Of a stretch of DNA of 15,904 bases, positions 1-9,162 are shown in pieces (within the stretch, counting starts at the first letter, position 1; each line of letters starts with the position of its first letter). Both the position numbers and the translations under genes were made by a program. The stretch spans positions 1-15,904 of the forward strand of contig JAGGXI010000025.1 of the NCBI GenBank assembly GCA_021163155.1, in the 5' to 3' direction. This DNA is from Candidatus Aerophobota bacterium. Lineage in GTDB: Bacteria; Aerophobota; Aerophobia; Aerophobales; JAGGXI01. The notes beneath the pieces are model-generated. The model had not been told where the DNA came from and did not search any database. It was given only the letters and a program-made list of their open reading frames with translations.

Positions 1-78
1 GCTAAAGCCTGCGGCTACCAGTTTACGTCTCACTGTTTTTCCCCCTTTAATCCTCTAATCCTCTAATCCTCTTTTCAC
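1..78 (-). repeat. Inverted, left-truncated copy of interspersed palindromic repeat
   Basis: Read on the minus strand, positions 35 to 1 match the repeat at 15599-15656 and 15711-15768 over 35 nt with one mismatch, including the sequence CTGGTAGCCGCAGGCTTTAG. The window edge cuts the 18-nt palindrome. Three exact tandem units of TAATCCTC (48-71) are the reverse complement of the GGATTAGA units in the 3' copies. This is the same repeat family in opposite orientation. No protein-coding potential is seen. Confidence 0.85.
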
Positions 79-107
79 TTGACATCAATAATAAATAATG
101 GTATATT
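79..107 (+). promoter_or_regulatory. Sigma-70/sigma-A type promoter of the his operon
   Basis: A consensus -35 box TTGACA (79-84) is separated by 17 nt from a TATATT -10 box (102-107). The -10 is preceded by TGG (99-101), an extended -10 feature. Transcription should start around 113-115, leaving a leader of about 45 nt before hisZ. It lies immediately downstream of the repeat copy. Confidence 0.85.
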
Positions 108-133
108 TCTTTAAGGTATTAATACTTTAAAGA
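108..133 (+). promoter_or_regulatory. 26-nt palindrome, probable operator of the his operon
   Basis: Positions 108-133 form an inverted repeat in which 12 of 13 base pairs match and the remaining pair (115/126) is G-T. The core is GTATTAATAC (116-125). It starts directly after the -10 box and covers the expected transcription start, the classical position for a repressor site. There is no loop and no T-run, so a DNA operator is more likely than an RNA terminator. The obvious candidate binder is the TrpR-like protein encoded at 7302-7619. That pairing is inference. Confidence 0.65.
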
Positions 134-159
134 ATTAAATTAATAAAGAAGGGATGATA

Positions 160-1413
160 ATGTTTGAAAAGATAAGTATTCCTGATGGATTAAACGATTT
201 ATTACCGGAAGAGGTCATCAAAAGAAGATTTCTTGAAAGAAAAATAAGTGAAGTTTTTAAAAAATGGGGCTATAGAGAGATAATAACACCTTCATTTGAA
301 TTTTACGAAGTCCTTTCTAAAGGGGCCGGAATCCCTTTAAAAAAGGAGATGATTAAATTTTTCGACCGCGAAGGAAATATCGTTGCTTTTCGCCCTGAGA
401 TGACCACTCCTATCGCCAGAATATCAGCAACTAAATTAAAAAATGAACCTAAACCTTTAAGGTTTTGGTATACAACCAATGTATTTAGATATGATAGTCC
501 TCAGATGGGTAATAGAAGAGAATTTACCCAAAGTGGAGTGGAGTTGATTGGAGTAAAGACAAAAGAAACTGATGCTGAAGTTATAGCTTTAGCTATAGAG
601 TGCTTAAAAAATGCTGGTCTTAAAAAATTTTTAATAGATGTGAGCCATATAGATTTTTTTAATGGAATTATGAAATCAATTAAGGTCGAAGAAAATGAAA
701 AACAAGAAATTAAAAAAGCTATTATTAAGAAAGATTTTGTATTGCTGGAGAAAATATTATCTTTAGCGAACCTAAAAAGGAGAGAGAAAGAGCTAATATT
801 AAATCTCTTTTCCTTAAGAGGAGGAGAAGAAGTATTGGAAAAAGCGGCAAGTATGGTAAATAATAAATTTTCTATTTCTGCTTTAAAAAAACTTAAAGAA
901 GTTTATAATATTTTAAGAGATTATGGATTAAAGGAATATATTTCAATAGACATGGGGATTATTCGCGATTTTGATTATTATACCGGGATTATATTTGAAG
1001 GTTATACTGATTATCTGGGATTTCCTGTTTGTGGTGGCGGAAGATATGATAATTTATGCTATAAATTCGGGGAAGATTTACCAGCGACGGGTTTTGCTAT
1101 AGGATTAGAGAGATTAGCATTAGCTTTGGAGAAAGAAGATTCAAATTCCTTAAAGATTAATGAGCCTTTAAAGTATCTTATATGCTATAAAGAAGGATAT
1201 CTTAAATCTGCCTTTGAATTAGCTCAATATTTAAGAAAGAAGGGGTTGAGAATAGAAGTCGAGGTCCTCAGAAGAAACCTTAATGATGCTCTTTTGTATG
1301 CATCTTCTAAAGAAATAAAATATTTAATAATGGTGGATAGTAAGATAGAATTAAAAAATAAGATAAAAGTCATTGATGTACTCTCAAAAAAAGAAAAAAA
1401 TAAAATTTTATAA
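160..1413 (+). CDS. hisZ: ATP phosphoribosyltransferase regulatory subunit HisZ
   Basis: A catalytically inactive paralogue of histidyl-tRNA synthetase that activates the short form of HisG and carries its histidine feedback control. The class II synthetase core is visible: motif 2 region LRFWYTTNVFRYDSPQMGNR, the histidine-binding segment RDFDYYTGIIFE (about residues 271-282 counted from the ATG at 154) and motif 3 with GGGRYDNL and ATGFAIGLERL. A diverged C-terminal part of about 90 residues follows. The adjacent short HisG (223 aa) is the form that needs HisZ, which favours HisZ over a true HisRS. An ATG at 154 is in frame, but the ribosome binding site AAGAAGGG ends directly against it. 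The ATG at 160 has normal spacing and is preferred. First gene of the operon, about 45 nt after the predicted transcription start. Confidence 0.88.
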   Translation: MFEKISIPDGLNDLLPEEVIKRRFLERKISEVFKKWGYREIITPSFEFYEVLSKGAGIPLKKEMIKFFDREGNIVAFRPEMTTPIARISATKLKNEPKPLRFWYTTNVFRYDSPQMGNRREFTQSGVELIGVKTKETDAEVIALAIECLKNAGLKKFLIDVSHIDFFNGIMKSIKVEENEKQEIKKAIIKKDFVLLEKILSLANLKRREKELILNLFSLRGGEEVLEKAASMVNNKFSISALKKLKEVYNILRDYGLKEYISIDMGIIRDFDYYTGIIFEGYTDYLGFPVCGGGRYDNLCYKFGEDLPATGFAIGLERLALALEKEDSNSLKINEPLKYLICYKEGYLKSAFELAQYLRKKGLRIEVEVLRRNLNDALLYASSKEIKYLIMVDSKIELKNKIKVIDVLSKKEKNKIL

Positions 1414-1437
1414 TTAAAAAGGATAAAGGAGAGCAAT

Positions 1438-2109
1438 ATGGGATATTTAACTGTTGCTTTATCAAGTGGAAAATTATTTGAACCAACTATTGAATTATTA
1501 AAAAAAATGGGAATAAATAGTGAACAATGGGAAGATGAAACTAGAAAATTAGCCTTTTTTGACCATGGTAATAATTTAAAATTTATCATTACTAGACCTA
1601 AGGATAATCCTACTTATGTAGAGTATGGAGCAGCTGATGCGGGAATAGTAGGAAAAGATATTTTAATGGAAGAAGAAAAAGATGTTTATGAGCTTTTAGA
1701 TTTAAAGTTTGGAGATTGTAAATTAGTTTTAGCTGGCTTAAGAGAGAAAGGTCCCGATTTTTATAAGAATGGAGGGCATTATTTAAGAGTAGCTACAAAA
1801 TATCCCCATATTACTATAAAATATTTTCAAAAGAAGAAAAAACAAGTTGAGGTAATAAAACTTTATGGTTCCATAGAATTAGCTCCTTGTGTTGGTCTTT
1901 CAGATATGATTGTAGATGTGGTTTCTACAGGACGCACTTTAAGAGAAAATAAGTTAATTGAGGTTGAACAGATATTTCCTATTAGTGCACGATTTATTGT
2001 CAATCGGATTAGTTATAAAACTAAACATAAAAAGATTAAAAAGTTTGTAGAAGAAATTAAGAAAATTATCTACTTTAGTGAACAAAGGGAACAAAATGAA
2101 CTTAATTGA
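1438..2109 (+). CDS. hisG: ATP phosphoribosyltransferase catalytic subunit, short form (HisG)
   Basis: Catalyses the first committed step of histidine synthesis, joining ATP and PRPP to give phosphoribosyl-ATP. The protein is 223 aa and lacks the C-terminal regulatory domain of long HisG, so it should form a hetero-octamer with HisZ. The N-terminal VALSSGKLFEP segment, the YGAADAGIVGKD region and the PRPP-binding loop DVVSTGRTLRE (residues about 160-170) are all present. The ribosome binding site AAAGGAG lies 7 nt before the ATG. The gene starts 24 nt after hisZ, and its 3' end overlaps the hisD start by 14 nt, as expected for translational coupling. Length and motifs look intact. Confidence 0.95.
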   Translation: MGYLTVALSSGKLFEPTIELLKKMGINSEQWEDETRKLAFFDHGNNLKFIITRPKDNPTYVEYGAADAGIVGKDILMEEEKDVYELLDLKFGDCKLVLAGLREKGPDFYKNGGHYLRVATKYPHITIKYFQKKKKQVEVIKLYGSIELAPCVGLSDMIVDVVSTGRTLRENKLIEVEQIFPISARFIVNRISYKTKHKKIKKFVEEIKKIIYFSEQREQNELN

Positions 2110-3394
2110 AATTATTGCTTTAACCAGAGAAAATAAGGAAAAGGTATTCAAAAATTTTAACCAGAGATATGTAAGAGAGGATTTAACAAAAATAGAAGAA
2201 AAGGTTAAAGAAATTATCATTAAAGTAAGAGATGAAGGGGATAAGGCTTTAATTGAGTTTACAAAAAAGTTTGATAAAGCAAAATTAAAGCCTTTGGACA
2301 TTTTAGTTAACCAAAAAGAGATTAAAGGAGCTTATAAAAAGATAAAAAAAAATTTTTTAGAAATAATAAGAGAAATAATAAAGAGAGTAAAAGAATTTCA
2401 TCAAAGGCAGAAAGAAAACTCCTGGATAACTATAAGAGAGAGAGGAATAATTTTAGGGCAAATTGTAAATCCTATAGAGAAAGTTGGGATTTATACCCCC
2501 GGCGGAACCGCTGCTTACCCTTCCTCACTTATAATGGGAGCAGTGCCTGCTAAGATTGCCGGGGTAGAAGAAATTGTTATGGCTACTCCTCCTTCACCAG
2601 AGGGCAAAGTAAATCCTTATCTATTAGTTACTGCTCAAGAATTAGGAATATCAACGATTTATAAAATGGGTGGTGCCCAGGCTATCGCTGCCTTTGCCTA
2701 TGGGACCGAAACTGTAAAACCGGTAAATAAAATTATAGGGCCAGGAAATATTTATGTAACTCTGGCAAAAAAAGAGGTTTTTGGAAAGGTAGATATTGAT
2801 ATGTTGGCTGGACCAACTGAAATTGTAATTTGGGCAGATAATAAAGCAAGCCCAGAGCTTATAGCTTCTGACTTATTTTCCCAGGCAGAACATGATGTGA
2901 ATTCGTCAGCTATTTTAATTACAGAATCAAAACTATTAGCCAAAGAGGTTAAAAGAGAAATAGAAAATAAAATAAAAGATTTAGAGAGAAAGGAGATTAT
3001 TGGTGAATCCTTAAAAAATTGGGGGAAAATAGTAATAGCTCAGGATGACAGGATAATATTAGAATTCATTAATAATTTTGCTCCCGAACATCTGGAACTT
3101 CAAATAGAAAATCCGTGGGAAATTTTAGGGGAGATAAAAAATGCGGGGGCAATATTTATTGGCTCCTACTCACCTGAACCAATAGGCGATTACTGGGCTG
3201 GCCCTAATCATATTCTGCCTACTTCAGGAGGAGCAAAGTTTTTCTCTCCTTTATCAGTAGATGATTTTACTAAAAAAAGCAGCCTAATTTTTTATAGTAG
3301 AGAAAGATTAAAAGAAGTTAAGGGAAAAGTAATGAGTTTAGCCTGTTTGGAAGGATTACAAGCTCATGCTTATTCAATGAAAGTAAGAAGGTAA
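2096..3394 (+). CDS. hisD: Histidinol dehydrogenase (HisD)
   Basis: Zn-dependent enzyme that oxidises L-histidinol to histidine in two NAD+ steps, the last reactions of the pathway. The 432-residue length is normal. The expected signatures are in order: GIYTPGGTAAYPSS (131-144), GPGNIYVTLAKKEVFG (215-230), DMLAGPTEI, SQAEHD with the zinc ligands Gln263 and His266, FAPEHLEL with the catalytic Glu331-His332, GDYWAGPNH with ligand Asp365, and a C-terminal AHAYS with His424. A GTG at 2078 is in frame, but ATG 2096 has AAAGGGA five nt upstream and begins like family members, so it is chosen. The start overlaps the hisG end. Confidence 0.96.
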   Translation: MNLIEIIALTRENKEKVFKNFNQRYVREDLTKIEEKVKEIIIKVRDEGDKALIEFTKKFDKAKLKPLDILVNQKEIKGAYKKIKKNFLEIIREIIKRVKEFHQRQKENSWITIRERGIILGQIVNPIEKVGIYTPGGTAAYPSSLIMGAVPAKIAGVEEIVMATPPSPEGKVNPYLLVTAQELGISTIYKMGGAQAIAAFAYGTETVKPVNKIIGPGNIYVTLAKKEVFGKVDIDMLAGPTEIVIWADNKASPELIASDLFSQAEHDVNSSAILITESKLLAKEVKREIENKIKDLERKEIIGESLKNWGKIVIAQDDRIILEFINNFAPEHLELQIENPWEILGEIKNAGAIFIGSYSPEPIGDYWAGPNHILPTSGGAKFFSPLSVDDFTKKSSLIFYSRERLKEVKGKVMSLACLEGLQAHAYSMKVRR

Positions 3395-3397
3395 TAA

Positions 3398-4456
3398 ATG
3401 GGAATTAAAAATTACCTCTATTTAAATAATCTTATCATAAGAAAACAGACTTTAGACAAGCTTCCTAAAATAGATACGATTATCTTTGATATTGATGGAG
3501 TCTTAATTGATGTGCGTTTATCATTTAGAAAGACAATCTGTGAAACTGTACAATTTTATTTTAAACAGATTTTACATTTTGAGGGGAAAGTAGATTTGGT
3601 TAAATTAGAAGAAATAGAATTTTTCAAATTAGCCGGTGGATTTAATAATGATTGGAATTTAAGTTTAGCAATTGTTCTATTTTATTTGATAAAAGCAGTA
3701 AAAAATAATCTTAAAGATACCAATGAGTTAAGAAATTCAAAACCTGATTTAAAAGAATTTGCTGAAAAGATATTGTCCAGAGGAGAGGGATTATTTGGCG
3801 TAAAGAGAATAGCTGAACAAGATAAAAAGATAAGAGAAAAAGTTTTTAATTTATGGAATAAGGGTTTAATAATTAAGATTTTCAAAGAGATTTACGCTGG
3901 GGAAAAATATTGTTTCAATCTTTATGGATTTCAACCTTCAATAATTAGGGCTAAGGGGAATATTGAGAAAGAAAAAGTTATTTTAACTAATAATAAAAGA
4001 GATATTTTGCGAAATCTGGCTATAGGTATCTTAAGCGGAAGAACTAAAGAGGAAGCAGAGATAGCCTTAAAGAAAATAAGGTGGGAAGATCTTATTTCTG
4101 AGAATCATATCATTACCGCTGATTATAATTTTGAAAAGCCGAATCCTGCCTGCCTAAAAGAATTATCTGATAGACTGCATACCCGAGTAGGAATATACAT
4201 TGGCGATACGAGGGACGATTTAATTACAGTTAAAAACTTCAATAAAGGAGAAAAGGGAAAGGAGTTTTTATCAGGCATAGTGTCATCAGACTATAATTTT
4301 AATTTAAAGGGTAATATGGAGCATCTTTACCTTAGAGAAGGAGTTGATCTTCTTGCTCCCGAGGTTAACGAAATTTTAGATTTATTGAAGAAAGTAAAGA
4401 GTGATAAACTATGCAATATAAAGAGAGAGGCAAACATTGAAAGAGAGAACAGGTAA
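3398..4456 (+). CDS. HAD-superfamily hydrolase, candidate histidinol-phosphate phosphatase
   Basis: A haloacid dehalogenase family phosphatase of 352 aa. The four HAD motifs are visible: motif I DIDGVL with the nucleophile Asp31 and Asp33, motif II ILSGR with Ser213, motif III Lys247 in FEKPNP, and motif IV GDTRDD (269-274). About 175 residues between motifs I and II form a large cap, with a GGFNNDW segment near 80-86. That architecture resembles the TIGR01548-type HAD proteins as I recall them. It lies 3 nt after hisD and overlaps hisB by 20 nt, so it is firmly inside the operon. No other histidinol-phosphatase (HisN, HisJ or the HisB N-domain) is in the window, so dephosphorylation of histidinol phosphate is the likely job. 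The substrate is inferred from context only. Start ATG with AAGAAGG upstream. Confidence 0.75.
   Translation: MGIKNYLYLNNLIIRKQTLDKLPKIDTIIFDIDGVLIDVRLSFRKTICETVQFYFKQILHFEGKVDLVKLEEIEFFKLAGGFNNDWNLSLAIVLFYLIKAVKNNLKDTNELRNSKPDLKEFAEKILSRGEGLFGVKRIAEQDKKIREKVFNLWNKGLIIKIFKEIYAGEKYCFNLYGFQPSIIRAKGNIEKEKVILTNNKRDILRNLAIGILSGRTKEEAEIALKKIRWEDLISENHIITADYNFEKPNPACLKELSDRLHTRVGIYIGDTRDDLITVKNFNKGEKGKEFLSGIVSSDYNFNLKGNMEHLYLREGVDLLAPEVNEILDLLKKVKSDKLCNIKREANIERENR
4422..4439 (+). promoter_or_regulatory. Ribosome binding site and TTG start of hisB
   Basis: GAGAGG (4425-4430) sits 6 nt before a TTG at 4437. No ATG occurs near the expected N-terminus: the next Met is residue 41, inside the first metal-binding motif. 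The residues after the TTG align with the usual IGPD start (basic residues, then RKTAET). TTG is therefore the start. Confidence 0.7.
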
Positions 4457-5030
4457 ATACAAAAGAAAAACTGCGGAAACCGCCGTAAGTGTTAAAATAA
4501 ATCTGGATGGTAGCGGAATTTGTAATGTGCAAACAGAAATTTTCTTTTTAAACCATATGCTTTCTTTGTTGGCTAAGCATGGATTTTTTGATATTGAGGT
4601 GAAAGCAAGTGGTGATCTTGAGGTCGATTATCATCATACTGTGGAGGATATAGGAATATGTTTAGGAGAAGCAATAAAAGAAGCTTTGCAGGATAAGAAG
4701 GGTATAAAAAGGTATGGATTATCAATTCTACCTATGGATGAGTCTTTAGTTAGAGTAGCTTTAGATTTAAGTGGGAGAGGAAGGTTAATATTTAAAGTTC
4801 GGTTTAAAGATGAGAGGGTAGGTTCTTTTGAAGTTAATTTAATAGAGGAATTTTTCAGGGCTTTATCTTATCATAGCGGAATGACTTTACACATAAATTT
4901 AATCTACGGAGAAAACTCCCATCATATTATTGAAGCCATATTTAAATCATTTGCTCAAACTTTAGACAAAGCAAGCAGTCGGGAAGAAAGATTAAAAGGC
5001 GTTCCGTCCAGCAAGGGAATTCTTGATTAA
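4437..5030 (+). CDS. hisB: Imidazoleglycerol-phosphate dehydratase (HisB), with atypical first motif
   Basis: Mn-dependent dehydration of imidazoleglycerol phosphate to imidazoleacetol phosphate. The monofunctional 197-residue form has no phosphatase domain. Metal-binding elements are present: His40, His48, the HHTVED motif with His66, His67 and Glu70, then His152 in MTLHI and SHHIIEA with His162, His163 and Glu166. The C-terminus GVPSSKGIL is typical. The first motif is odd. Families usually read TGIPFLDHMLD, whereas here it is TEIFFLNHMLS, so Gly, Pro and both Asp residues are replaced while the metal-binding His stays. TTG start inside the end of the HAD gene. The 3' neighbour was hisH, now only a remnant. 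Confidence 0.9.
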   Translation: MKERTGKYKRKTAETAVSVKINLDGSGICNVQTEIFFLNHMLSLLAKHGFFDIEVKASGDLEVDYHHTVEDIGICLGEAIKEALQDKKGIKRYGLSILPMDESLVRVALDLSGRGRLIFKVRFKDERVGSFEVNLIEEFFRALSYHSGMTLHINLIYGENSHHIIEAIFKSFAQTLDKASSREERLKGVPSSKGILD

Positions 5031-5051
5031 AAGTGATAGAGGGTTTTAAAT

Positions 5052-5116
5052 ACGATTATTATAATAGATTACGGAATGGGAAATTTAAAATAAGAAATTT
5101 TGGAGAGTTGAACTAA
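5052..5116 (+). pseudogene. hisH: hisH remnant: internal deletion scar, start codon lost
   Basis: Between hisB and hisA, codons 5052-5090 read TIIIIDYGMGNLK and then stop (TAA 5091). This is the hallmark N-terminus of HisH, the glutaminase subunit of imidazoleglycerol-phosphate synthase, normally beginning M-IIIDYGMGN. The initiator is ACG instead of ATG, 8 nt after an AGAGGG ribosome binding site. A second frame ends RNFGELN and a TAA (5114-5116) directly before the hisA ATG, and looks like a HisH C-terminal end. The rest, roughly 180 codons of a usual 200, is missing, including the catalytic Cys and the His-Glu pair. The two ends are in different frames, and the hexamer AAATTT occurs on both sides of the junction (5081-5086 and 5095-5100). 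Recognition of the N-terminus is strong; assignment of the C-terminus is weaker. Confidence 0.8.
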
Positions 5117-5842
5117 ATGCAGATAATTCCAGCTATAGATATTAAAGAGGGAAAATGTGTTAGATTGAGAGAAGGCAAACTCCAGGATATGGAGATTTTC
5201 TCTGAGGAACCTGTAGTTATAGCCAGAAGATGGGCTGACAAAGGAGCAAAGATTTTGCATGTAGTGGATTTAGATGGAGCTTTTTATGGTAAATTAACTA
5301 ATATATTGTTAATAAAAAAGATTATTAAAGAGGTAAAACTTCCTGTTCAGGTAGGGGGAGGAATTAGAAGTTATAAGGAAGTAAAAAATCTCTTAAATTT
5401 TGGAGTAGCAAGAGTTGTTCTGGGAACTCTTCTTTGGGAAGATAGAGATTTAGCCAAAAGATTATTTAATGAATTTTCTTGCCGAATAATAGCCGGGATT
5501 GATGCGCGGCAGGGATTTGTAGCGGTGCAAGGGTGGCAGAATATTACTCAAATTGAAGCTATTGAATTTGTTTTAGAGATGGAAAGATTAGGTGCGCAAA
5601 GGGTAATTTACACTGATATCCAAAGAGATGGGACTCTTACAGGACCTAACATTGCTGTTATAGAAAAGACGCTAAAAAAAGTTAATATTCCTCTCATTGT
5701 CTCAGGAGGGATTGCTTCTTTAAATGATATTAAAGAGTTAAAAAAATTTGAAAAGTTAGGATTAGAAGGAGTTATTCTCGGTAAAGCTTTATATAAAGAA
5801 AATATTTTATTAGAAGAGGCTATAAAGATAGCCAGAAATTAA
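5117..5842 (+). CDS. hisA: ProFAR isomerase (HisA)
   Basis: Phosphoribosylformimino-5-aminoimidazole carboxamide ribotide isomerase, a (beta-alpha)8 barrel that performs the Amadori rearrangement feeding imidazoleglycerol-phosphate synthase. The catalytic Asp8 (IIPAIDIKEGKCVRL) and Asp129 (AGIDARQG) are present, with the phosphate-binding VGGGIR (79-84), the GWQ segment (139-141) and TDIQRDGTLTGPN (166-178). The length of 241 aa is normal. The ribosome binding site GGAGAG (5102-5107) lies in what was the end of hisH. The start ATG directly follows the hisH stop, so translation was probably coupled before the deletion. Confidence 0.95.
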   Translation: MQIIPAIDIKEGKCVRLREGKLQDMEIFSEEPVVIARRWADKGAKILHVVDLDGAFYGKLTNILLIKKIIKEVKLPVQVGGGIRSYKEVKNLLNFGVARVVLGTLLWEDRDLAKRLFNEFSCRIIAGIDARQGFVAVQGWQNITQIEAIEFVLEMERLGAQRVIYTDIQRDGTLTGPNIAVIEKTLKKVNIPLIVSGGIASLNDIKELKKFEKLGLEGVILGKALYKENILLEEAIKIARN

Positions 5843-5861
5843 GTTAATTTAGGAGGTTTTT

Positions 5862-6638
5862 ATGAGTTTAACAAAAAGGATTATACCCTGTCTTGATGTA
5901 AATAGAGGTCGGGTAGTTAAAGGAATTAAATTTGTAAGTCTGGTAGATGTTGGGGATCCGGTTGAGTTAGCCTATTTTTATGAAAAAGAGAAAGCAGATG
6001 AAATTGTTTTTTTGGATATTACTGCCTCATTTGAAAAAAGAAATATTATGATTGAAATAGTTGAAAAAACAGCAGAAAAAGTTTTTATACCTTTTACAGT
6101 AGGAGGTGGAATTAAAAACCTTGAAGATATTTATCGTTTGTTAAGAGCAGGAGCAGATAAAGTTTCTATTAATACAGAAGCTGTTAAAAATCCCGATTTA
6201 ATTAGAGAATCATCTTTAAAATTTGGTAGCTCCACTATTGTAGTAGCTATTGATGCAAAGAAAATAGGTTCGGATTGGGAGGTATTTATTAATGGCGGAA
6301 GGACAAGAACCTGTCTTAAGGTTGTTGATTGGGCTAAAAGGGTGGAAGAGCTGGGAGCGGGAGAAATACTACTCACCAGTATGGATGAAGATGGGACAAA
6401 AGATGGGTATAATATTGAGTTAACTAAAGAAGTTTCCAATGGAGTAAATATTCCTATTATTGCTTCTGGAGGTGCCGGTAATCCTGAACATATTTACCAG
6501 GTATTAACTGAAGGAAAAGCTGATGCTGCTTTAGCTGCTTCTATATTTCACAGGAAAGAGTATTCTATTAAAGAGATAAAAAAATTTCTCCAATTAAGAG
6601 GAGTAAAGATAAGATTAGAGGGAGAGTCTACGCTATGA
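5862..6638 (+). CDS. hisF: Imidazoleglycerol-phosphate synthase cyclase subunit (HisF)
   Basis: The barrel that closes the imidazole ring from PRFAR and ammonia, releasing AICAR. The length of 258 aa is normal. Catalytic Asp12 ([15 protein letters not shown]) and Asp131 (VVAIDAK) are kept, as are VGGGI (80-84), [14 protein letters not shown] and IIASGGAG. The residues that form the ammonia gate towards HisH in the Thermotoga enzyme (Arg5, Glu46, Lys99, Glu167) are all conserved here as Arg6, Glu47, Lys100 and Glu168. The partner gene hisH is only a remnant upstream, so this HisF either uses free ammonia or a HisH encoded elsewhere. The ribosome binding site AGGAGG lies 7 nt before the ATG. 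The stop overlaps the hisIE start (ATGA). Confidence 0.96.
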
Positions 6639-7312
6639 ACCTAAAGAATATTTTAGAGAGTATAAAATTTAACAAAGATGGTTTAATACCAGCAATAGTT
6701 CAAGAAGAGGGAACAACTCAGGTTTTAATGTTAGCTTATATGAACGAGGAGTCTTTAACTAAAACTTTAAAGACAGGAAAAAGCTGGTTTTATAGTAGAA
6801 GCAAAAAAAGACTCTGGCTAAAAGGGGAGACATCGGGTAACACTCAAAAAGTGAAAAGGATTTATCTGGATTGCGATAATGATGCTCTTCTTATATTAGT
6901 TGAACAAAAAGGGGTAGCCTGTCATACTGGAAGATATTCTTGTTTCTTTAAAAGTATAGAAAATAATCAAATAAAGGAAACGAGGGAAAAAGAGAAGTTT
7001 AATTATTTATCAAGAGAAAAAGATATTATAAATGAGATTTATCAAGTAATTCAAGAGAGAAAATCTAATTATCAAAGTGATTCTTATGTTTGTAAACTGC
7101 TAACTCAACCAGAAGATAGGTTACCTAAGAAAATAGGTGAGGAAGCTACTGAGGTTATCATTGCCTTAAAGGATAAGGATAAAACCTCATTGATTTATGA
7201 AATTGCTGATTTGTGGTTCCATACTTTGGTGGCTTTAGGTTATTTGGATATTTCCCCGGAAGAAGTTTTTAAAGAATTAAGAAAAAGGAGGAAATTAAAA
7301 AATGGAGGATGA
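6635..7312 (+). CDS. hisI: Bifunctional phosphoribosyl-AMP cyclohydrolase / phosphoribosyl-ATP pyrophosphatase (HisIE)
   Basis: A fusion of the second and third pathway enzymes. The N-terminal HisI domain (about 1-110) shows the metal site DCDNDA with Asp79, Asp81 and Asp83, and the zinc cysteines Cys80, Cys96 and Cys103 in [11 protein letters not shown]. The C-terminal HisE domain (about 125-225) shows the MazG-like helices with [10 protein letters not shown] (168-177) and EIADLWFH (189-196), which bind Mg and pyrophosphate. A charged linker (about 111-124) joins them. The length of 225 aa is typical of the fusion. It starts in a 4-nt ATGA overlap with hisF, and its 3' end overlaps the TrpR-like gene by 11 nt. 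Often named hisI or hisIE. Confidence 0.95.
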
Positions 7313-7619
7313 GGAAATAGGAAGATATCCTCGATGGAGAGATGAACTTACTGACCAGTTATTCAAGGCTATATTACTTCTTAAGAATAAAGAGGAATGC
7401 TATCGTTTTTTTGAGGATTTGGCTACAATTAATGAGATAAAAGAGATGAGTCAAAGGCTAAAAGTAGCTCAAATGTTAAATCAGGGTTTTATCTATGAAG
7501 AAATTGTTCAGAGAACAGGAGCAAGTTCAGCAACTATTAGCCGGGTTAAAAAATGTTTAAATTATGGAGCGGATGGTTATAGGTTAATTTTAGAGAGGCT
7601 ACGCAAGGTAAAGAAATAA
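7302..7619 (+). CDS. TrpR-like (YerC/YecD family) DNA-binding protein, candidate his operon repressor
   Basis: A 105-residue, all-helical protein of the Trp repressor-like family, with no enzyme motifs. The [17 protein letters not shown] start and the [15 protein letters not shown] segment are typical of YerC/YecD proteins. The helix-turn-helix lies at about 63-86 ([20 protein letters not shown]). It is the last gene of the operon, overlapping hisIE by 11 nt, with AGGAGG (7286-7291) upstream of the ATG. TrpR-family regulators named HisR have been proposed for histidine operons of Gram-positive bacteria by comparative genomics, as far as I recall. Together with the promoter palindrome at 108-133, a histidine-responsive repressor with autoregulation is the best inference. 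Direct evidence for ligand or site is lacking. Confidence 0.85.
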
Positions 7620-7650: not shown

Positions 7651-7674
7651 TGTCAAATGTTGAGACCTGACCCC
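7651..7674 (+). repeat. REP-like half-site fragment
   Basis: The segment includes GAGACCTGACCCC (7662-7674), preceded by TGTCAAATGTT. I associate this consensus with repeats near REP-associated (Y1, RAYT) transposases in many genomes. Only one arm is present here and no transposase is in the window, so it is at most a remnant. Confidence 0.35.
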
Positions 7675-7845: not shown

Positions 7846-9162
7846 ATGTCTTATCAAGTATTAACAAGAAAATGGCGTCCACAACTTTTTGAAGAGGTGG
7901 TAGGGCAAGACCATATAATACGCATCCTAAAAAATGCTGTCTCTTTGAGGAGAATAAGTAATGCCTATTTATTTTCAGGACAAAGAGGAGTAGGAAAAAC
8001 CAGTACAGCACGCATTTTAGCCAAAGCTTTAAATTGTGAAAAAGGTCCTACACCTGCACCTTGTAATAAATGTAGTATATGTAAACAGATAATCAGAGGC
8101 AATTGTTTGGATGTTTTAGAAATAGACGGAGCTTCAAATAGAGGAATTGATGAAGTAAGAGAATTACGAGAAAAAGTGAGGTTTTCTCCTGTTAAAGCAA
8201 GATTTAAGGTGTATATTATAGATGAAGTGCATATGCTTACTAATCCTGCATTCAATGCTCTTCTTAAAACTCTGGAAGAGCCTCCATCTTATGTAGTGTT
8301 CATATTTGCTACAACTAACCCCCATAAACTCCCTCAAACTATTACTTCACGATGTCAGCATTTTGAATTTAGAGGAATTTCCGCATCCGCTATTCTCCTT
8401 AGATTAAAACAGATAGTAGAAAAAGAGAAGATTGATATAACTGAGGAGGCTCTTCGTCTAATTGTTGAAGCAGCAGAAAACAGCATGAGAGATGCTGAAA
8501 AAATATTGGATCAAACTACCTCTTATACTGAAGAAAAAATAACAGAAAAAGATATTGCTGATATTCTGGGAATGGTAGAAAAAAGATATTTATTTCAGTT
8601 TACAGAAAATTTAGCTCATAAAGCTAATTTATCCAACATAAAGCTGGTTGACCAACTACTTAAGGAAGGAAAAAGTGCGGAAGGGTTTATTTCAGGATGG
8701 CAGAAATGGTTCAGAGATTTAATTATAATTAAAATAGGAGGAAAACAAGATTCTCTTCCTATCTTAAATTTAAATGAAAGAGAAGAATTAGAAAAACAAG
8801 CATCCTATTTTAAATTGAATCAGATTATCTACTTTATAGATGTTCTCTCTGAGTTCAGGCAAAAGATTACTTTTTCCTCTGAACCACAGATTCACCTGGA
8901 ACTTTTAATGTTTCAGCTTTCCTCTTCTCTTGCAGGGATGGATAATTTAAATTTAAAAGAGCCTGAATTATCCGCAATATATCAAAAGATATTAGACTTA
9001 GAAAAAAGACTTACTTCTAATCATTCTTCTTCAAAGATCAAAAAAGAGGAAGAGAAAAAAAATTCTCCGGATGAAAATGGCGAAGAAGAAGAATTTAAGA
9101 AAATAATAGTTAAAGCAATGGATATTTTTGAAGCAGAGATAGTAAACAATGACAGGAGGTAA
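7846..9162 (+). CDS. dnaX: DNA polymerase III subunit gamma/tau (DnaX), short C-terminal region
   Basis: The AAA+ ATPase of the replicative clamp loader. The N-terminal part is classical: Walker A GQRGVGKT (45-52), a zinc module with Cys64, Cys73, Cys76 and Cys79, Walker B IIDEVH (124-129) and the sensor/arginine-finger segment TSRCQHFEF with Arg169. Domain III (about 240-360) is present. After a charged Lys/Glu/Ser linker (about 385-415) the protein ends quickly with an IIVKAMDIFEAEIV helix that resembles the extreme C-terminus of bacterial DnaX. The usual tau region that binds the polymerase is not seen, and 438 aa is short for the family. Start ATG with AAGGA 8 nt upstream. The stop lies in the ribosome binding site of the next gene. 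Confidence 0.93.
   Translation: MSYQVLTRKWRPQLFEEVVGQDHIIRILKNAVSLRRISNAYLFSGQRGVGKTSTARILAKALNCEKGPTPAPCNKCSICKQIIRGNCLDVLEIDGASNRGIDEVRELREKVRFSPVKARFKVYIIDEVHMLTNPAFNALLKTLEEPPSYVVFIFATTNPHKLPQTITSRCQHFEFRGISASAILLRLKQIVEKEKIDITEEALRLIVEAAENSMRDAEKILDQTTSYTEEKITEKDIADILGMVEKRYLFQFTENLAHKANLSNIKLVDQLLKEGKSAEGFISGWQKWFRDLIIIKIGGKQDSLPILNLNEREELEKQASYFKLNQIIYFIDVLSEFRQKITFSSEPQIHLELLMFQLSSSLAGMDNLNLKEPELSAIYQKILDLEKRLTSNHSSSKIKKEEEKKNSPDENGEEEEFKKIIVKAMDIFEAEIVNNDRR

Follow-up and report, generated by a model that had tools for sequence, protein, structure and literature searches.

The histidine operon of a Candidatus Aerophobota bacterium (assembly GCA_021163155.1) has lost its hisH gene, with the neighbouring genes intact. 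The operon lies in the window analysed here, the 15,904 nucleotides at positions 1 to 15,904 of contig JAGGXI010000025.1. The hisH product supplies ammonia from glutamine, and the cyclase subunit HisF is retained. Comparison with relatives confirmed that the scar left between hisB and hisA, at 5052-5116, is real. The operon itself, spanning window positions 1-7619, looks from its sequence affinities to be of a type known otherwise from the distant Atribacteria/JS1-like bacteria, brought in by horizontal transfer or xenologous replacement. Tree and identity data point to this origin, which the first-pass annotation had missed and which is new here. The parts of the operon and the gene marking its right flank are as follows:

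154..1413, forward strand: hisZ, ATP phosphoribosyltransferase regulatory subunit (TIGR00443, 366.9 bits; 67% identity to the syntenic hisZ of L175)
1438..2109, forward strand: hisG (TIGR00070, 200 bits)
2105..3394, forward strand: hisD (TIGR00069, 537.8 bits)
3398..4456, forward strand: HAD-family hydrolase, candidate histidinol-phosphatase from its position only (HAD_2/Hydrolase Pfam; same place in the operons of relatives)
4437..5030, forward strand: hisB, IGP dehydratase (PRK00951-type models)
5117..5842, forward strand: hisA (TIGR00007, 266.5 bits, cut-off 228.95)
5862..6638, forward strand: hisF, cyclase subunit without its glutaminase (TIGR00735, 374.8 bits, cut-off 294.55)
6635..7312, forward strand: hisIE (PRK02759, 263.9 bits)
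7302..7619, forward strand: TrpR-related regulator of the YerC/YecD type, final gene in the putatively transferred operon (TIGR02531; 73-80% identity and syntenic in L174 and L175)
7846..9162, forward strand: dnaX, host-lineage gene marking the right flank of the operon (identities and tree)

Reading the sequence directly, the hisB stop codon occupies 5028-5030. The 5' piece of the scar opens with ACG at 5052-5054 and continues with IIIIDYGMGNLK at 5055-5090 to a TAA stop at 5091-5093, the codons of 5052-5093 being ACG ATT ATT ATA ATA GAT TAC GGA ATG GGA AAT TTA AAA TAA. In another frame, the codons from 5093 are AGA AAT TTT GGA GAG TTG AAC TAA, or RNFGELN-stop. This out-of-frame reading, (KI)RNFGELN, ends with the TAA at 5114-5116, and the hisA ATG at 5117 directly adjoins it. 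We assigned the following features to the region:

5033..5116, forward strand: possible micro-ORF of 27 codons with a GTG start, arising from the deletion, its TAA adjoining the hisA ATG (open reading frame only)
5038..5043, forward strand: AGAGGG, former Shine-Dalgarno-like site of hisH, aligning with GGGAGGG 5' of the intact hisH in L135
5052..5090, forward strand: hisH 5' remnant, 13 codons TIIIIDYGMGNLK, with ACG in place of the ATG start (sequence, HisH profile score, DNA of relatives)
5093..5116, forward strand: hisH 3' remnant, RNFGELN-stop, in a frame different from the 5' piece (C-terminal profile, DNA of relatives)
5102-5107, forward strand: GGAGAG, likely hisA ribosome-binding site, within the hisH 3' remnant

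The 5' piece carries the HisH N-terminal motif I-x-I-I-D-Y-G-M-G-N-L. Against a HisH profile built from 20 sequences its N-terminal block of 12 residues scores 48.75, compared with 18.25 for the next-best N-terminal score elsewhere in the window and a maximum of 25.2 over 15 Markov-simulated windows. The C-terminal heptamer IRNFGEL has a chance probability of about 6e-5 per position against the HisH C-terminal profile, and the way the HisH C-terminus adjoins hisA, RNFGELN-stop-ATG in the window, corresponds to KNFGELS-stop-ATG in relatives.

The order of the host is a poor source of comparators, as hisH there lies beside hisF, often with guaA too, and away from hisA. We instead searched named genomes for HisF, which led to Candidatus Atribacteria CG_4_8_14_3_um_filter_34_18 (L055). 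This genome has HAD-hisB-hisH-hisA with a 205-aa hisH, and its order was searched next. There hisB and hisA directly flank a full-length hisH at nine loci (L135, L139, L140, L141, L142, L143, L144, L145 and L148) from eight genomes, L148 being a second copy within one of these; the JS1-like genome concerned, G042, has two divergent his operons (L139 and L148) with hisH in each. Aligned with the window, the six closest intact hisH genes give 31-32 matches over 38 bases at the 5' end, where their ATG lies over the ACG, and 15-19 over 21 bases at the 3' end, at gene position 594-597 of 618-627. In L135, L139 and L140 the stop of hisH directly adjoins the start of hisA, as in the window, and hisB is 70-75% identical to the hisB of closer relatives. 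Two fuller relative stretches preserve the complete order hisZ-G-D-HAD-B-H-A-F-IE-trpR, to which the window is identical except for hisH. The operon of CG_4_8_14_3_um_filter_34_18 and its relatives thus shares with the window its gene order and hisH-hisA junction, with protein identity of 60-80% for most genes, but differs in having a full-length hisH of about 203-207 aa.

These comparisons bear out the first-pass annotation, which had proposed that the first 13 hisH codons remain between hisB and hisA with the start changed from ATG to ACG and a stop immediately after them, that an out-of-frame piece of the HisH C-terminus runs up to hisA, and that the flanking genes stay open. Relatives that carry the full gene at this position confirm these points; the stop is read directly, and in alignments of the hisB-hisH-hisA junctions both ends of the remnant match intact hisH DNA. 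The net loss is 553 bp relative to a 618-bp relative, which is not a multiple of three. It took away all of the catalytic apparatus, with the oxyanion strand, the GICLGMQ region of the nucleophilic cysteine and FHPEKS. No full-length class I amidotransferase with a Cys-His-Glu triad stands at this place, the GICLG and FHPEKS of the intact relative both being absent. GGAGA also precedes hisA in relatives, and the window copy lies within the 3' remnant; hisA therefore keeps its likely ribosome-binding site, as the remnant holds GGAGA(G).

The hexamer AAATTT does occur at the junction as first described, with copies at 5081 and 5095, but the short-repeat deletion suggested from it does not hold: one copy would be expected to remain and both persist. 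AAATTT or close variants are found at both ends of intact hisH genes, in the N-terminal G-N-L codons and the C-terminal N-F codons. We therefore rejected AAATTT as the recombined repeat, since both copies remain, each at its normal place at one of the gene's two ends. A short TTTAAA match is possible at both ends of some intact hisH genes; this route would need a further loss of 4 nt to give the observed junction.

In trees, the window HisF groups with the JS1-like clade (support 100/99; its best identity is 81%), whereas DnaX encoded on this contig groups with the host order (support 100/100). This conflict between trees on one contig indicates that the operon was acquired horizontally. DnaX is 58-72% identical to the host order over long matches (mostly 61-72%) versus 47-50% to JS1-like genomes, and GMP synthase, encoded on another contig, likewise resembles the host lineage, at 65-69% versus 59% to the Atribacteria genome. 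At the left end, window positions 1-70 carry a repeat of which host contig C86 has three copies at its end. The GC content of the his part, 0.30-0.34, is lower than that of the right end of the contig, 0.36-0.41, and searches of the same 93% complete genome gave no further hisA or hisF. Together, these observations argue for horizontal acquisition and not a binning error. Contamination by a misbinned JS1 contig was rejected on the host-type dnaX, the host repeat at the left end and the lack of other hisA or hisF genes, although the contig could conceivably be chimeric, joined between 7620 and 7845. We infer that transfer ran from a JS1-like donor to the host and preceded the deletion.

Several further features of these flanks were observed. 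The repeat, GCTAAAGCCTGCGGCTACCAGTTTACGTCTCACTG, is common to two contigs of the genome (window 1-70 and L052:9266-9698), with its core also in L027 from the same order, and a GAGACCTGACCCC motif at 7662-7674, in the spacer from trpR to dnaX that bounds the putatively transferred operon, also occurs in L033 from the same order. The dnaX product is 438 aa long, whereas most relatives from the order have an open frame of some 555-590 aa; an ebfC-type gene starts no more than 6 bases after dnaX, which seems to lack the C-terminal tau part. A phage search gave no match, and we found no literature on histidine biosynthesis in Atribacteria.

HisF itself shows, at the level of sequence, no sign of relaxation. 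It has one rare substitution in 93 strongly conserved columns, like its hisH-bearing relatives, and keeps the HisH-contact residues. R6, D12, E47, D99, K100, D131, E168 and D177 are all retained; the protein reaches the TIGR00735 cut-off and conserves, in T. maritima numbering, the catalytic D11/D130 and R5/E46/K99/E167, which we take to be the gate residues. A catalytic role for D11 and D130 is described (PMC11350729). A change of Q to S at 124 was considered as a consequence of hisH loss and rejected, being common to hisH-bearing relatives. The change of D to N at 184 is unlike JS1-like relatives, in a column that is only 90% conserved. Nothing in HisF indicates adaptation to free ammonia, and the loss of hisH may simply be recent.

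The genome is a 93% complete assembly in 119 contigs from a 1.8-Mb uncultured lineage. Searching it for another hisH or an unlinked class I glutaminase, as the first-pass annotation had suggested, returned no other HisH above the TIGR01855 cut-off, and PF00117 matched only GuaA and PyrG (named from frame length, GuaA also by sequence). The search of the genome yielded neither a chorismate-binding protein nor a TrpG, PabA or CarA that might compensate for HisH. CarB is full length (L052:5734-9039, contig C86), with no CarA beside it and none detected elsewhere in the genome, apparently a second synthetase that lacks its glutaminase; CarA is present in 7 of 12 host-order relatives tested. At 93% completeness each absence, of HisH or of CarA, is weak evidence on its own. 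Second HisF-like proteins, about 51% identical to the window HisF, occur in the host order (L039, L040, L044 and L037), and some of these frames adjoin a CarB-like frame, with no HisH detected beside them. It is conceivable, though we consider it doubtful, that the lineage has switched to free ammonia in several pathways, with HisF lacking HisH and CarB lacking CarA. If so, internal ammonia would be high, from habitat or metabolism, and separable class I glutaminase subunits would be in the course of being lost singly, one after another.

The explanation we favour, and hold to be probable, is that a JS1-like operon was acquired, that hisH was deleted, probably afterwards, and that HisF is fed by free ammonia. 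An operon of the Atribacteria/JS1-like type would have entered between the host repeat and the host dnaX. An internal deletion, probably after transfer, would then have cut about 550 bp out of hisH, fusing codon 13 out of frame to the last seven codons, and the start codon would have become ACG. Expression of hisA would be spared through the ribosome-binding site in the 3' piece, with the 5' piece left as debris. We infer that HisF uses free ammonia directly and not ammonia channelled from HisH, and that the pathway still runs. A dying pathway, in which the deletion is real, histidine is taken up and the other his genes have yet to decay, seems rather improbable. Loss of hisH causes auxotrophy in E. 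coli and Salmonella (PMC3896937), and a 5' remnant still matching relatives at most of its bases is consistent with a recent event. However, every other gene of the operon is still open, the conservation of HisF equals that in relatives with hisH, and hisC is present elsewhere in the genome.

We give little credence to the idea that the remnant is kept for a function, with the GTG micro-ORF coupling hisB translation to hisA. Its frame is open from 2 nt past the hisB stop to the TAA adjoining the hisA ATG, but the GTG has no clear Shine-Dalgarno sequence, openness by chance is easy at such a length, and hisA retains its own GGAGAG. Such coupling would in any case be an addition compatible with the favoured explanation and not an exclusive alternative. 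It is quite unlikely that a working HisH, for example from a native hisH-hisF pair, is encoded in the missing ~7% of the genome and serves HisF in trans. An unlinked hisH could be missing because of the incompleteness and fragmentation of the assembly, and 9 of 17 genomes of the host order have hisH, adjoining hisF and often guaA in those examined, but the guaA locus of this genome (contig C2) has neither hisH nor hisF alongside and no second hisA or hisF turned up in the genome. Least probable of all, by a little, is an assembly artefact or minority variant, whereby an intact hisH in the population was collapsed by the assembler or by a chimeric read. While the genome is a fragmented assembly, a collapse leaves unexplained both the ACG start and the absence of another HisH-bearing contig in the bin, and intact hisH genes have no long repeat common to both ends that could drive it. 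The two lesions, deletion and lost start, argue for real decay and not assembly collapse alone.

Returning to the favoured explanation, ammonia-fed HisF is preferred on account of its intact residues and three precedents. HisF by itself, given ammonium salts, carries out the cyclase reaction in vitro (PMC11350729); a C. glutamicum ΔhisH strain is reported to grow without histidine, and its hisF to complement hisH loss in E. coli (unpublished results cited in PMC3896937); and histidine synthesis on high ammonia has been proposed for Blochmanniella with hisH pseudogenes (PMC12779916). Natural loss of hisH with HisF retained is thus rare but already reported. What is new here is that the operon was apparently acquired horizontally, that the scar is well resolved and that CarB without CarA offers a parallel case. 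In the window, imidazole glycerol phosphate synthase has naturally lost its glutaminase half, in a bacterium outside the known endosymbionts and with intact relatives as controls, which would allow a test of whether HisF alone can support histidine synthesis on ammonia in nature. Tools that assess pathway completeness would score a gap in histidine synthesis in this genome.

The closest known systems differ from it in distinct ways. The Blochmanniella ant endosymbionts (PMC12779916) likewise show natural inactivation of hisH with small ORF fragments left behind, but the operon in the window looks horizontally acquired and its host is an uncultured lineage that is not known as an insect symbiont. 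The C. glutamicum ΔhisH strain (PMC3896937) also has HisF without HisH and keeps the other his genes; there, however, the deletion was engineered and growth without histidine was reported, whereas the loss in the window is natural and such growth would be a prediction.
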